The translations under genes and the position numbers were made by a program. From Halobaculum limi (GTDB lineage Archaea; Halobacteriota; Halobacteria; Halobacteriales; Haloferacaceae), in contig NZ_CP120468.1 in the NCBI RefSeq assembly GCF_029490015.1, positions 496,001-560,000 of the forward strand: DNA of 64,000 nt, in the 5' to 3' direction. Positions 33,469-42,178 of this stretch are shown here, piece by piece. The notes beneath the pieces are model-generated. The model worked only from the letters and a program-made list of their open reading frames with translations, was not told the origin of the DNA and ran no database searches. Each line of letters opens with the position of its first letter. The first letter of the stretch is position 1.

Positions 33469-35072
33469 GCGACGACGACACCAGCCCCGACCGGGGCACC
33501 GACATCGACGAACAGACGGAGCGTGCGCGAACCGACGGCGGAACGGGCGTGGCGCTCGACCCGTGGGGCTCTGCGACCGTCGCGGACTACCGCGACCTCT
33601 TCGAGGAGTTCGGTATCGAGGAGTTCGAGGAGATTATCGACGAGGTTCCGAACCCTCACTACTTGATGCGCCGTGGCGTCATCTTCGGGCACCGCGACTA
33701 CGGCGCGGTCGCCCGAGCGCTCGCCAACGACGAACCTGCCGCCGCACTCTCGGGGTTTATGCCCACGGGCGACCCCCACATCGGGCACAAACTCGTCTTC
33801 GACGAACTGATCTACCACCAACAGCAGGGCGCGGACACCTACGGCCTCATCGCGGACTTGGAAGCCCACTCCGCCCGCGGGATGACGTGGGAGGAGATCG
33901 ACAAACACGCCCGCGACTACCTCCTCTCGCTGCTCGCACTCGGGTTCGACCCCGAGGAAGGCGAACTGTACCGGCAGTCGACGAATCGTCGACTGCAGGA
34001 TCTGGCTTTCGAGTTGGGGTCGAACGCCCGCTTCGCGGAGTTCCAGTCCATCTACGGCTTCGACGGGAGCACCTCGGTCTCGCACATGCAGTCGGTCGTC
34101 ACGCAGATGGCCGACATCCTCTATCCGCAACTGGACGAACCCAAGCCGACGGTCATCCCGGTTGGCCCCGACCAGGATCCGCACGTCCGCTTCGCCCGCG
34201 ACATCGCGGTGAAGACGCGCTACTTCAAGGTGACCGAGGCGTTCGCCAGTCCGGAGTTCGACGCCGCCGAACGCGTCCTCGTCCGGCGAGCGTACGACGA
34301 ACGCGACGAGTGGGCAGACGATCCCGAGCAGCCGCGGTGTGAGGACGCCGCCGCCTACCTCCACGCTGCCGAGGTGGACGAGGAATTCCGCGCGGCCCGT
34401 TCACATGCCGTCGAGAAGTTGGAGAACGCCGGAATGGAGCCGCTTCGCCCCCGGACGCGCTTCCTCGACCGCAACGCCGACGAGCAGGCGTTCGAGGCGC
34501 TCATCGAGGCGGTGCCCGGCGAGAAGCGCGTGTTCGACGCGCACATCGACTCCTTCGAGTTAGATCGAGGAGAGGCGGAAGAACTCGCTCGCGAGGTGGA
34601 AGTCGACAACGGTGGCTTCGGCTTCTACACGCCGTCGTCCATCTACCACCGCTTTATGACCGGCCTCACGGGCGGGAAGATGTCCTCCTCCATCGAAGCG
34701 AGTCACATCTCCCTGCTCGACGACCCCGAGGAGGGGTACGACAAGGTGAAGTCGGCGACGACCGGCGGCCGCGAGACGGCCGAGAAACAGCGCGAACTCG
34801 GCGGGAAGGCCGACGAGTGCCCCGTCTACGAACTGTACGCCTACCTGCTCGCGAACGACGACGACGGCCTCGCAGAGGAGGTGTACGAGGAGTGCGTCGG
34901 CGGCGAGCGTCTCTGTGGCGGTTGTAAGGAGCAGGCGGCGACGCTGATGCAGGAGTTCCTGAAAGAGCATCAAGAGCAGCGCGAGGAGGCGAAAGAACTG
35001 CTCTCGGAGTTAGATATCGACCTCGACGTCGACGCCTCGCGGCGGGGCGTCCCCGGCGACGAGGACGAGTAG
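33465..35072 (+). CDS. trpS: Tryptophanyl-tRNA synthetase
   Basis: A 535-residue class I synthetase charging tRNA-Trp. The HIGH-type motif is MPTGDPHIGHKLVFDEL (about residue 97), and the signature loop is GGKMSSSIEAS (about 405). The archaeal/eukaryal type is shown by PVGPDQDPHVRFARDIA and FYTPSSIYHRFMTGLTGG. An extra N-terminal acidic stretch of about 35 residues and a C-terminal coiled helix (QEFLKEHQEQREEAKELLSELDIDL) follow haloarchaeal style. Its ATG lies inside the endA stop (ATGA), so translation is coupled. In several haloarchaea tRNA-Trp contains an intron that EndA removes, which makes this pairing meaningful. Confidence 0.97.
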   Translation: MSDDDTSPDRGTDIDEQTERARTDGGTGVALDPWGSATVADYRDLFEEFGIEEFEEIIDEVPNPHYLMRRGVIFGHRDYGAVARALANDEPAAALSGFMPTGDPHIGHKLVFDELIYHQQQGADTYGLIADLEAHSARGMTWEEIDKHARDYLLSLLALGFDPEEGELYRQSTNRRLQDLAFELGSNARFAEFQSIYGFDGSTSVSHMQSVVTQMADILYPQLDEPKPTVIPVGPDQDPHVRFARDIAVKTRYFKVTEAFASPEFDAAERVLVRRAYDERDEWADDPEQPRCEDAAAYLHAAEVDEEFRAARSHAVEKLENAGMEPLRPRTRFLDRNADEQAFEALIEAVPGEKRVFDAHIDSFELDRGEAEELAREVEVDNGGFGFYTPSSIYHRFMTGLTGGKMSSSIEASHISLLDDPEEGYDKVKSATTGGRETAEKQRELGGKADECPVYELYAYLLANDDDGLAEEVYEECVGGERLCGGCKEQAATLMQEFLKEHQEQREEAKELLSELDIDLDVDASRRGVPGDEDE

Positions 35073-38022: not shown

Positions 38023-38493
38023 TCAGGCGCTACTCGACTCGTCGGTCGGTTCGTCGAACTCGGTGAGTTCGGACTCCGGATCCGCCTCTTCGTCGTCGCG
38101 GCGGAGGCGCGTGGGGTCGGTCTCGGTCGGTTTGTCGAACTCCTCGTTGAGCAACGCGCCGAGGAAGCCCCCGGCAGCGCCGAGGACGCCGCCGTACAGC
38201 GCCGTGAGCAGGAGGATGAGGAGGAAGAACACGAACGCGACCAACAGCGCCGACCGCTGGCCGGGACCGGCGATGACGAACACCGACGCGACGAGCGTCC
38301 CGAAGAGCGCACCGGGAACGGCCGCGAGTAGTCCCGAGAGGCCACCAACTTTCGCCCCTTCGGTCCGGTCGGGGCCGTGGAGGTAGCCGGCGGCCGCGCC
38401 GCCGATGGCCGGCGAAAACGGGAGGAAGAACGTCACGAGCGTTATCGCCGCGCCGATGATCGCGTGTTTCAGCGTGTCGTCACTGGAGGACAT
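38023..38493 (-). CDS. DUF5518-like membrane protein
   Basis: A 156-residue haloarchaeal membrane protein with about four helices (IIGAAITLVTFFLPFSPAIGGAAAGYL, GGLSGLLAAVPGALFGTLVASVFVIAG, ALLVAFVFFLLILLLTALYGGVLGAAGGFLGALL) and an acidic C-terminal tail of about 40 residues. The glycine-rich GGAAAGYLHGPDRTEGAKVGGLSGLLA loop matches my recollection of the DUF5518 family. TTTATGAC about 29 bp upstream on the minus strand supports a leaderless start. Function unknown. Confidence 0.78.
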   Translation of the reverse strand: MSSSDDTLKHAIIGAAITLVTFFLPFSPAIGGAAAGYLHGPDRTEGAKVGGLSGLLAAVPGALFGTLVASVFVIAGPGQRSALLVAFVFFLLILLLTALYGGVLGAAGGFLGALLNEEFDKPTETDPTRLRRDDEEADPESELTEFDEPTDESSSA

Positions 38494-38610: not shown

Positions 38611-38617
38611 GCTTTTG
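38611..38617 (+). promoter_or_regulatory. TATA box of the pheST leader transcript
   Basis: GCTTTTG begins 31 bp before the ATG of the 28-codon leader ORF, placing transcription start at or next to that ATG as for other leaderless genes in this window. Confidence 0.5.
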
Positions 38618-38641
38618 TCGGCGGCTACCCGTCGCTCGTGT

Positions 38642-38728
38642 ATGGCAACCGGACCCGCCACGACGCCGCAGGCACCGTACCCGACCACCGACCGGGACGG
38701 GTCCGCCTTCTTCTTCCCGCGCCGTTGA
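38642..38728 (+). CDS. Candidate Phe-sensing leader peptide of pheST
   Basis: A 28-codon ORF starting at a probably leaderless ATG and ending in TGA 149 bp before pheS. Its last residues are SAFFFPRR, with three consecutive TTC Phe codons at 38708-38716. It is not in frame contact with any known gene and lies alone in the 383-bp space between the divergent DUF5518-like gene and pheS. The RNA around it can form alternative hairpins (see 38700-38765). By analogy with bacterial pheST and amino-acid operon leaders, ribosome stalling on the Phe codons would report low Phe-tRNA. This role is inference. Confidence 0.55.
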   Translation: MATGPATTPQAPYPTTDRDGSAFFFPRR

Positions 38729-38765
38729 CCCCGGCGGACCGGCGGCACGTCCGAGGGGGCGTGCC
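38700..38765 (+). promoter_or_regulatory. Candidate attenuator: four mutually exclusive RNA segments
   Basis: Segment 1, GGTCCGCC (38700-38707), immediately precedes the Phe codons and pairs perfectly with segment 2, GGCGGACC (38733-38740). The CGGAC of segment 2 can instead pair with GTCCG (38749-38753) in segment 3. Segment 3, GGCACG (38744-38749), can pair with segment 4, CGTGCC (38760-38765). A ribosome at the stop codon (38726-38728) would cover segment 2 and leave 3:4 to form; a ribosome stalled on Phe codons would cover segment 1 and favour 2:3. There is no U-run after 3:4, so the output may not be bacterial-type termination. Confidence 0.45.
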
Positions 38766-38876
38766 CGCGCGAAACCGAGTTCCGGGTCGCTCGGCGCGAG
38801 ACGACCGGCGACTGGCACGACGCCGCGCCGGAACGACACGACTAACCACCGACCGATACGACACGCACACAATCGA

Positions 38877-40373
38877 ATGCGACTCCCACAGGCGCAGGTC
38901 GCGTTGCTGGAAGCCGCCAGCGCGACCGACGCGAAGACCATCGAACAGTTAGCCGAGGACACCGACCTGAAGCCGGAGACGGTCACGCGCGCCGCCTTCG
39001 ACCTCCGCGACGAAGGCCTCGTGAGCGTCGACGAACGCGTCGAGGAGTCGGCTACCCTCACCGACGAGGGCGAGACGTACCTCGACGCCGAACTCCCCGA
39101 GGTGCGCCTCCACCGCGCCGCTCGCGACGCCGACGGCCCCCTCGGGATGGGCGAGGCCATCGGCGCGGCCGGCCTCGAAGGTCCCGAAGTCGACATCGCC
39201 CTCGCCAACTACGCGCGGAAGGGCTACGGCGTCGTCGACTCCGGCGAAGTGACCGCGAACGAGGACGCCGACCCCGACGCTGACGAGGAGGCCGCCGCCC
39301 TCGCTGCACTCGCAGACGGCGACGCCGTCGACGACGCGGACCTACTGGGTCGATTGGAGAGCCGTGGTCTCGTCGCCCTCGACGAGCGAACCGTCCGCTC
39401 GGTGACGCTCACCGACGACGGTGTCACCGCCCTGATGGAGGGCGTTGAGGCCGCCGAGACGGTTGACCGACTCACGCCCGAACTGCTCACGAGCGGCGAG
39501 TGGGAGGACGTCGAGTTCGCCGAGTACAACGTCGAGGCCGACGCACCCGCCGTCGAGGGCGGGCGTCAACACGTCCTGCGCTCGATGTCCGAGCGAGTGA
39601 AAGACGTCCTCGTTGGGATGGGCTTCCAGGAGATGGACGGCCCCCACGCCGACGCGGACTTCTGGATCAACGATTGCCTGTTCATGCCGCAGGACCACCC
39701 GGCACGCACTCACTGGGACCGGTTCGCCCTCGACGTGCCGCCCGTCCGTGACCTCCCGGAGGGCCTCGTCGACCGCGTGGAGGCGACCCACCGGGACGGC
39801 ATCGGCGAGGACGGCGACGGCTACCACTCGCCGTGGTCGGAGGACTTCGCCCGCGCCATCGCACTTCGCGGCCACACCACGTCGCTGTCGATGCGCTACC
39901 TCTCGGGGTACGCGAACGCCGACATCGACCCGCCGAAGCGCTACTTCTCGGTGGAGAAGGCGTACCGCAACGACACCCTCGACGCGACGCACCTGCTGGA
40001 GTTCTACCAGATCGAAGGGTGGGTGATGGCCGAGGATCTCTCGGTGCGTGAGTTGATGGGCACGTTCGAGGAGTTCTACCGGCAGTTCGGCATCGAAGAG
40101 ATCCGATTCAAGCCTCACTACAACCCCTACACGGAGCCGAGTTTCGAGTTGTTCGGCGAACACCCGGAGACGGGCGAGGAGATCGAGATCGGCAACTCGG
40201 GGATGTTCCGCGACGAAGTGCTCGAAACCCTCGGCATCGAGTGTGACGTGATGGCGTGGGGGCTCGCCTTGGAGCGTCTCGCGATGCTCACGACCGGCGC
40301 GGAAGACATCCGCGACCTACACGGCACGCTTGCAGACCTTGAGTTCCTGCGGAACGCGGAGGTGACCTACTGA
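38877..40373 (+). CDS. pheS: Phenylalanyl-tRNA synthetase alpha subunit
   Basis: A 498-residue class II catalytic subunit of the archaeal/eukaryal type. The N-terminus has winged-helix repeats (LPQAQVALLEAASATDAKTIEQLAEDTDLKPETVTRAAFDLRDEGLVSV) that bind tRNA. The catalytic core includes MGFQEMDGPHADADFWINDCLFMPQDHPART, FSVEKAYRNDTLDATHLLEFYQIEGW (motif 2) and GIECDVMAWGLALERLAML (motif 3). The ATG at 38877 gives the normal archaeal N-terminus; the longer open frame upstream is not coding. Its TGA overlaps the pheT ATG (TGATG). Expression may be governed by the leader at 38642-38765. Confidence 0.97.
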   Translation: MRLPQAQVALLEAASATDAKTIEQLAEDTDLKPETVTRAAFDLRDEGLVSVDERVEESATLTDEGETYLDAELPEVRLHRAARDADGPLGMGEAIGAAGLEGPEVDIALANYARKGYGVVDSGEVTANEDADPDADEEAAALAALADGDAVDDADLLGRLESRGLVALDERTVRSVTLTDDGVTALMEGVEAAETVDRLTPELLTSGEWEDVEFAEYNVEADAPAVEGGRQHVLRSMSERVKDVLVGMGFQEMDGPHADADFWINDCLFMPQDHPARTHWDRFALDVPPVRDLPEGLVDRVEATHRDGIGEDGDGYHSPWSEDFARAIALRGHTTSLSMRYLSGYANADIDPPKRYFSVEKAYRNDTLDATHLLEFYQIEGWVMAEDLSVRELMGTFEEFYRQFGIEEIRFKPHYNPYTEPSFELFGEHPETGEEIEIGNSGMFRDEVLETLGIECDVMAWGLALERLAMLTTGAEDIRDLHGTLADLEFLRNAEVTY

Positions 40374-42178
40374 TGCCAGTCGTTGACATCGACACGGACG
40401 AACTGCGAGGATTGACCGGCGCAGACAAGAGTGACGAGGAGTTCAAGTCCGACCTGTTCGCCCTCGGTCTGGAGTACGAGGGCGACACGGAAGACGGCCT
40501 CCTCCAGTTCGAGTTCGGACCGGATCGCTTGGATCGGCTCTCGGTCGAGGGTGTCGCTCGCTCGCTGCGTTACCAGTACGGCGAGGACCGCGGCGTGTAC
40601 GTCCCGAAGACGAACGACGCCGACTGGACCATCGAGGTCGACCCCTCGGTGCCCGAGGAGCGCCCGTACGTCACCGGCGCGGTCGTCCGCGGCGTCAACC
40701 TCGACGAGTCCGGCCTCGACTCGCTCATCCAGTTGCAAGAGAAACTCCACGCGACGATGGGCCGCGGCCGCGCGAAAGGCGCTATCGGCGTCCACGACCT
40801 GACGATGCTGAAAGGGCAGGCGCTCACCGAAGAATCGGAGCCGTCCGGGACGATAAACGCCGCCTCGGCGGATCTGGGTGCGACCGAGAAGACCGTCACC
40901 TACCGCGGCGTCGACCCCGAGGGCGACCGCTTCGTCCCCCTCGACTCCAACGCCGAGATGACGCCCGCGGACGTCCTCACCGACCACCCGATCGGTGACA
41001 AGTACGCCGACCTCGTCGAGGACCTCGACCGCTACCCGGCGATCTACGACGAACTCGGCCTGTTTTCGTTCCCGCCGGTAATCAACGGGTCGCGCACGGA
41101 GGTCGACACCGGCTCTCGCGACCTGTTCATCGAACTCACCGGGACCGACCAGTGGACCATCGACAAGATGTGCGTCATCCTCTGTTACGCGCTCTCCGCT
41201 CGCGGCGGCACCGTCGAGGAGGTGCAGGTCGACTACCAAGACGGCGCGACGTACCCCGACGAGTACGGTCCGGAACTGATCCGGCCGGATCTGGACACCG
41301 ACGAGAAGTCCGTCACCCACGACCGCATCGAGACGATGCTCGGTGTCGAACTGGAGCGCGAGGAGGTCGTCGACCTGTTCGAGCGCTCCGGACTGGACGC
41401 TGCCTACTCGCTCGGCGAGGAGGAGACGGTGTATGACGTGACGATTCCGCCGTACCGCGTCGACGTGCTCCACCCGCTCGACCTCATTGACGACGTTGGC
41501 CGAGCGTACGGCTTCAACGAACTCGAACCGACGTACCCCGACACCGGTACCATCGGCGGCCGCCACGAACGCTCCCGACTCGGGCGAGCGGTCCGCACGA
41601 GTCTCATCGGCCTCGGCTTCGAGGACATGCTCAACTTCCACATGACCTCGGCCACCGAGAACTACGAGCGGATGGGTGTCGAGGAACGCGACCCCGGCGA
41701 CGACCTGGCGGACGCGCCGCTTGGCGCAGAGCCACGCGCCGAGATCACCAGCCCGTACAGCGAGGACTACACCCAACTGCGGACGTGGGCGCTCCCCTCG
41801 CTGGTGCAGGTACTGGAGAACAACACCCATCGGTCGTACCCGCAAGACCTCTCGGAGGTCGGCTTCGTCGCTCACCGCGACGACGACGTCAACACCCGCG
41901 TCGCCGAAGACCGCCACGTCGCGGGTGTGCTGGCGCGGACGGACGCCACCTACGAGGACGCGAAAGCCCGCGTGCAGGCCGTCTGCAACGACTTCGACGC
42001 CGAGTTGGAGACGCCCGCGACGGAGCACCCGAGTTTCCTCCCCGGCCGCGTCGCCGCCGTCGTCGTCGACGGCGAACGCGTCGGCGTCGTCGGCGAACTC
42101 CACCCCGAAGTGCTCGTAGACCGCGACATGGAAGTGCCAGTCGCGGCGTTCGAGTTCTCGCTGTCGGCGCTGCAGTAG
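40373..42178 (+). CDS. pheT: Phenylalanyl-tRNA synthetase beta subunit
   Basis: A 601-residue partner of PheS; the two form the alpha2-beta2 enzyme. It begins MPVVDIDTDELRGLTG, has the B3/B4 editing-type domain (LQEKLHATMGRGRAKGAIGVHDLTM, PPVINGSRTEVDTGSRDLFIELTGTD), the B5 domain (DVTIPPYRVDVLHPLDLIDDVGRAYGFNEL) and a C-terminal catalytic-like fold (GELHPEVLVDRDMEVPVAAFEFSL). The length is normal for archaeal PheT. Its ATG shares one base with the pheS stop codon, giving coupled translation. Confidence 0.97.
   Translation: MPVVDIDTDELRGLTGADKSDEEFKSDLFALGLEYEGDTEDGLLQFEFGPDRLDRLSVEGVARSLRYQYGEDRGVYVPKTNDADWTIEVDPSVPEERPYVTGAVVRGVNLDESGLDSLIQLQEKLHATMGRGRAKGAIGVHDLTMLKGQALTEESEPSGTINAASADLGATEKTVTYRGVDPEGDRFVPLDSNAEMTPADVLTDHPIGDKYADLVEDLDRYPAIYDELGLFSFPPVINGSRTEVDTGSRDLFIELTGTDQWTIDKMCVILCYALSARGGTVEEVQVDYQDGATYPDEYGPELIRPDLDTDEKSVTHDRIETMLGVELEREEVVDLFERSGLDAAYSLGEEETVYDVTIPPYRVDVLHPLDLIDDVGRAYGFNELEPTYPDTGTIGGRHERSRLGRAVRTSLIGLGFEDMLNFHMTSATENYERMGVEERDPGDDLADAPLGAEPRAEITSPYSEDYTQLRTWALPSLVQVLENNTHRSYPQDLSEVGFVAHRDDDVNTRVAEDRHVAGVLARTDATYEDAKARVQAVCNDFDAELETPATEHPSFLPGRVAAVVVDGERVGVVGELHPEVLVDRDMEVPVAAFEFSLSALQ

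Follow-up and report, generated by a model that had tools for sequence, protein, structure and literature searches.

The pheST operon of Halobaculum limi, which encodes phenylalanyl-tRNA synthetase, is preceded by a short open reading frame (ORF) that ends in a run of phenylalanine codons, and this raises the question of whether an archaeon can adjust the expression of a synthetase through the progress of a ribosome along a leader peptide. Attenuation by a ribosome-translated leader is textbook bacterial biology, and the bacterial pheST (pheM) and pheA genes are controlled by leader-peptide transcription attenuators (Rfam Phe_leader). In the open-access literature, the field to which the search was confined, no archaeal leader-peptide attenuation was found. 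The locus is described here in the window, i.e., the whole stretch of 64,000 nucleotides that was analysed, and compared with a sample of 91 pheS loci, 80 of them from named haloarchaea and 11 from Halobaculum.

The leader ORF and its distribution

In the window, pheS (phenylalanyl-tRNA synthetase alpha; 38877..40373, + strand, ATG at 38877) was identified by PF01409 (E 5e-79) and is directly followed by pheT (phenylalanyl-tRNA synthetase beta; 40373..42178, + strand, PF17759 and PF03484). The candidate leader is a 28-codon ORF on the same strand (38642..38728) with the peptide MATGPATTPQAPYPTTDRDGSAFFFPRR and a TGA stop codon (38726-38728), 148 nt from pheS. An earlier note on this DNA had pointed to such an ORF with three Phe codons before pheST, and it is borne out: the three adjacent codons TTC TTC TTC (38708..38716, + strand), the proposed sensing site, are conserved at the amino acid level, and homologues of the ORF are found upstream of pheS elsewhere. 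A TATA-like box, CTTTTG (38612..38617, + strand), is the candidate leader promoter, its TTTT lying 26-29 nt 5' of the leader ATG. This spacing places the transcript start at about the ATG, so that the ORF would be leaderless, as had been suspected. A similar arrangement recurs in the homologous leaders: in 73 of 74, a T-run or TATA occupies the interval -31..-22 relative to the leader start codon, and in 63 its position is -29/-30. Divergent from this promoter, a DUF5518 membrane-like protein (PF17647) is encoded on the - strand at 38023-38493.

A second box, GGAACGACACGACTAACCACCGACC, was revealed closer to pheS (38830..38854, + strand) by comparison of the pheS loci. Its class-wide form, GGAACCGCTAACTGAC, lies about 30-60 nt 5' of pheS in most loci (the Halobaculum form is longer) and is retained even where the leader is missing. 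It is possibly the basal promoter of pheS. As a second promoter it could bypass the leader, which counts against leader control.

A homologous short ORF with a Phe-rich end, typically GFGFFFAR followed by the stop codon, was found at 74 of the 91 pheS loci, although the sampled genomes are related and per-sequence counts therefore overstate independence. These 74 leaders are 23-54 codons long and lie 97-259 nt upstream of pheS. On the pheS tree they occur in Haloferacaceae, Natrialbaceae, Haloarculaceae, Haladaptataceae, Natronoarchaeaceae, Natronomonadaceae and Halorubellaceae, and presence or absence amounts to about 12 changes, which are read as one old gain followed by repeated loss. Attenuation of pheST, if the leader works in this way, probably existed already in the ancestor of Halobacteria. 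The whole leader region is missing in several lineages, including four of the 11 Halobaculum genomes, which indicates that the leader is dispensable and counts against leader control. No leader was seen at the methanogen outgroup pheS loci examined, although in most of these the position of the start codon was poorly defined. Two loci (L156 and L157) have a different layout: the leader tail GFGFFFGA ends only about 35 nt from pheS, P1-P2 (the RNA element described below) is absent, there being no room for it, and the stop of a six-codon ORF (MRLSRR) overlaps the pheS ATG. Retention of the peptide without the element at these two loci counts against the control proposed below.

The codons of the leader suggest what is being preserved. 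Within the GFGFFF frame nearly all variation falls at third positions, TTT and TTC being exchanged, which points to selection of the Phe-rich tail as a peptide. TTT makes up 52 of 243 Phe codons in the leader tails versus 84 of 1,470 in pheS. In 62 of the 74 leaders, the last Phe and the stop are 3-4 codons apart. Beyond the Phe run, a MA(P/S)E start and the GFGF context are conserved as well, as might be expected of a TnaC-like nascent chain that arrests the ribosome on sensing free phenylalanine or another cue rather than the supply of Phe-tRNA. This alternative is nevertheless unlikely: positions within the run vary (FFF, FVF, FRF, FPF and FEF), yet at least three Phe codons are retained in most leaders, and the Trp leaders described below have an unrelated peptide context.

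The Phe run is also specific to this position. Short ORFs that start with ATG and span 15-60 codons, 2,307 in all from both strands of 80 loci, were screened with the Phe-run criterion. The pheS leader accounted for all 75 matches, alternative ATGs included, and the other approximately 2,230 short ORFs gave none. When 59 whole genomes were searched with the GFGFFF codon pattern, pheS leaders preceded by a TATA-like box accounted for 19 of the 22 matches, one leader being listed from an internal ATG; the remaining three matches lay in longer frames. Phe leaders were found before none of 30 prephenate dehydratase loci, and a tblastn search of plasmids with a 26-aa peptide as the query gave no match. 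These data bear on the idea that the uORF makes a small functional protein with no part in pheS control. The uORF is indeed translatable and conserved, but the conservation is limited to its ends, the length is as variable as noted above, the uORF is tied to pheS, and a Pfam and NCBIfam scan of the leader peptide found no family; this reading is considered very improbable.

The RNA element downstream of the stop codon

On the 3' side of the stop codon, a conserved element (P1-P2) was found that consists of an outer stem P1, an internal loop GGA/GAA and a long variable stem P2. In the window (all + strand), P1 is formed by 38729-38735 with 38774-38780 (element part 38729..38780) and is supported by covariation; it is short here, as CGG/CCG alone pairs well in this genome. 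The internal loop comprises GGA at 38736-38738 and GAA at 38771-38773, and P2 pairs 38740-38750 with 38758-38769 (38740..38769). A covariance model matched the window at 38726-38784 with 27.5 bits. The loop is nearly invariant and could accommodate three pairs of the G·A type (tandem G·A), with its GGA most often 7-12 nt past the stop codon. A K-turn was considered for it and rejected on inspection, as the bulge geometry does not fit.

Two-sided changes were observed at 15 of 18 pairs in 65 distinct sequences, including all 11 pairs of P2. The covariation score was 0.436 compared with 0.151 ± 0.012 after shuffling, and the signal was lost when the partners were slid. Since the alignment had been fitted to the model, an alignment-free test was run in addition, in which arms were swapped between sequences. 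Swapping weakened P2 strongly (z -18) and P1 to a lesser degree (z -5.4, and just -1.9 with longer, variable arms); simple nulls stand behind these permutation tests and the MFE tests, and the RNA-model E-values below are rough.

P1-P2 accompanies the leader: a search of 72 leader loci detected it at 66, and 17 loci without a leader yielded one occurrence. The exception is a frameshifted leader (L045, from the MAG QS_9_68_17), in which the frame is broken past an intact start and P1-P2 is kept, owing either to decay that began recently or to an error in sequencing. In about six of 10 independent pairs on the tree, the leader changed jointly with the element, while the rest showed no difference and none changed in opposite directions. 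Sequence comparison thus establishes the ORF, its Phe codons, the promoter spacing and P1-P2, as well as their co-occurrence. When 40 genomes were searched with the model, 18 matches at E <= 0.1 were obtained, several of them at pheS; none of those followed up, a minority of the 18, was shown to mark another gene, and the element appears to be tied almost only to pheS. Among 4,227 Rfam models, including Phe_leader and T-box, none matched, except mir-598 by chance (E 9.2).

The near invariance of the GGA/GAA loop would suit an operator to which PheRS or some other protein binds, with autoregulation as the main circuit and the uORF as a secondary feature. Such an operator would leave unexplained both the class-wide run of Phe codons and the Trp leaders before trpS, and its probability is put slightly below that of the arrest peptide.

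The element replaces much of the scheme with which the locus was first described. In that scheme, four segments were thought to pair as 1:2, 2:3 and 3:4 in the classic attenuator manner. The 1:2 complementarity of GGTCCGCC and GGCGGACC is present in the window, but across the family it shows z values of -1.0 and -0.6 with no covariation, and the exact pairing of leader codons with the post-stop arm differs even among Halobaculum. The 2:3 pairing with GTCCG (38749-38753) was not seen in any other Halobaculum sequence; the conserved partner of segment 2 (post-stop GGCGGA) is GAAACCG instead, with which it forms P1. The 3:4 hairpin GGCACG/CGTGCC was found and is conserved as the extended P2. An alignment of pheS upstream regions hence gave a mixed answer: the Phe-codon ORF and a covarying structure recur in Halobacteria, but just 3:4 is conserved among the four segments. 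The lack of conservation of the exact 1:2 and 2:3 pairings is what might be expected if a chance ORF had met chance pairing in GC-rich DNA. The conservation of the leader throughout the class, its Phe pattern and the covariation show that the ORF and P2 are not due to chance, for both of which this explanation is already refuted, and as a whole it is scarcely credible.

A hairpin of the 1:2 type may still exist in another form. CGCCG (38720-38724) can pair with CGGCG (38732-38736) across the stop codon (38720..38736, + strand) and would compete with P1. Folding of this hairpin is slightly favoured (clade means averaging z -0.58 ± 0.20 over 27 clades), with a clade mean z of -2.03 in Halobaculum; sequence support for it is weak and clade-dependent, and no covariation was seen. 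Further downstream lies a weaker hairpin without a U-run, P3 (38789..38823, + strand; mean z -0.99 across the family), located 63-97 nt past the stop, with a mean of clade means of z -0.72 ± 0.22. Control windows adjoining the stop-spanning hairpin and P3 showed no folding preference. Alternative pairing of the P1 3' arm with downstream RNA was less than in permuted pairs (z +3.0).

Proposed mechanism and the output step

Taken together, the leader is probably a ribosome-dependent regulator of pheST that senses Phe-tRNA through its Phe codons. From the parts described above, we infer where the ribosome would pause, in which direction control would run and at which step it would act. If transcription starts at the leader ATG, ribosomes would load on the leaderless transcript at once and trail the RNA polymerase. 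When Phe-tRNA is short, a ribosome would wait at the Phe codons with its leading edge near the stop codon; the post-stop RNA would then be free and P1-P2 could fold during its synthesis, which would be the permissive state. When Phe-tRNA is plentiful, the ribosome would reach the stop codon and cover the P1 5' arm. After its release, the stop-spanning hairpin could hold that arm, P1-P2 would be disfavoured, and fewer transcripts or messages would arrive at pheS, i.e., the repressed state. The codon spacing and an assumed leading edge of about 15 nt suggest that the P1 5' arm should be covered by a ribosome at the stop codon and left free by one at the Phe codons. Since synthetase genes are expected to be raised upon starvation, P1-P2 is most simply taken as the permissive form.

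The remark in the earlier note that there is no U-run holds for the whole sample: between leader and pheS, no run of four U was found at any of the 74 loci, and the longest T-run was 3. It has been reported that archaeal termination favours U-tracts (PMC8716108). The leaders thus show no terminator of the bacterial type and no U-tract aCPSF1 terminator, and a classical attenuator is not established. Of the classic attenuator that had been proposed, the Phe-codon leader before pheST stands, and does so class-wide, but the four-segment scheme as drawn does not.

The absence of a terminator-like U-run could also mean that the same sensor has a translational output, in which P1-P2 or translation of the leader sets how readily ribosomes reach pheS, and not how long the transcript is. 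In the sequences read by eye no obvious Shine-Dalgarno was seen before pheS, and the short distance from leader end to pheS in L156 and L157 would suit coupling. However, the complementarity of the P1 arms to the 60 nt before pheS did not exceed that of permuted pairs (z +1.6 and +3.4), which makes masking of the start site less likely, and the folding excess is gone past about +85 in most sequences. A translational output is therefore regarded as possible but rather doubtful. The leading guess for the Phe-codon leader is that its output would be termination without a U-run, or mRNA processing, either being likelier than masking of the pheS start.

Tryptophan leaders, published transcripts and known systems

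A second codon-specific case supports the reading of the Phe leader. In Haloferax and relatives, accessory trpS genes are preceded by leaders such as MVSTSHANCWRWHAFREVDSIAV. Leaderless Trp leaders (CWRW, WRWW) were found at L169 (Haloferax mediterranei pHME505), L170, L171, L092 and L095-L098. The inverted repeat GTCCACTTCCC...GGGAAGTGGAC flanks the Trp codons of accessory trpS leaders, with GC-rich variants in others. At the accessory trpS loci L172-L174, the leader begins with GTG and contains a single Trp (VSTSRETDERRWR). In Haladaptatus, trpS (L177 and L178) is preceded by the short leaderless ORFs MFAATTAGGRFWPTTAH and MYPSATAGGRFWPTTAH, in which the Trp codon is situated in a hairpin loop closed by GTGGTCG/CGACCAC. 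A search of ordinary archaeal trpS genes gave no Trp leader. The window contains one such gene about 5 kb upstream of pheS (G000:C1:529738-530997, approximately 33738-34997 of the window), and none was seen there. At trpB, a Trp leader at one of 30 loci was judged to be chance because its TATA is weak and its Trp codons are far apart.

Published data place such uORFs on real transcripts. In a dRNA-seq study (Babski et al. 2016, Table 2), a 26-aa uORF (pI 5.9, mass 2772) was listed in the long 5'-UTR of Haloferax volcanii pheS (HVO_2948) with no further TSS at pheS, so the pheS mRNA carrying the uORF is transcribed; the same table has a 23-aa uORF before the tryptophan--tRNA ligase HVO_A0127, and the text says nothing on the codons of the uORFs, on their conservation, on RNA structure or on attenuation (PMC4983044). 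Sister species in Haloferax have 26-aa leaders with pI values of 4.4-5.9 and masses of 2792-2850 compared with 2772. We take the two H. volcanii uORFs to be the Phe and Trp leaders. In an RNA-seq study of endA CRISPRi (PMC7714728), tRNA-Trp was reduced by log2 2.7.

It is likely that these cases represent archaeal codon-specific, ribosome-mediated attenuation, in which leaderless peptides would sense Phe-tRNA for pheST and Trp-tRNA for accessory trpS and act through an RNA switch without a U-run. If this is true, archaea too would set gene expression by ribosome speed, in a group that is genetically tractable and for which coupling of transcription and translation has been reported (PMC8576121). 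The pheST leader would be a ready reporter for that coupling and for U-tract-free termination, and the leader reading would give a role to uORFs known from transcriptome maps.

The best reading of the comparisons is that the pheST leader would work like the bacterial attenuators with a different RNA architecture. In common with the pheM and pheA leaders, it has a short ORF with a Phe run just before the phenylalanyl-tRNA synthetase genes, and an RNA structure sited so that the position of the ribosome could decide the folding. Unlike them, the archaeal ORF appears leaderless with a TATA promoter, and its RNA is P1-P2, which contains a tandem G·A loop, has no U-run of a terminator and matches no Rfam model. 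With arrest and translation-attenuation leaders such as TnaC and ErmC it would share the control of a downstream gene by translation of the leader, as proposed here; in contrast to these, the haloarchaeal codons match the amino acid of the downstream enzyme, and the context of the Phe run tolerates change.
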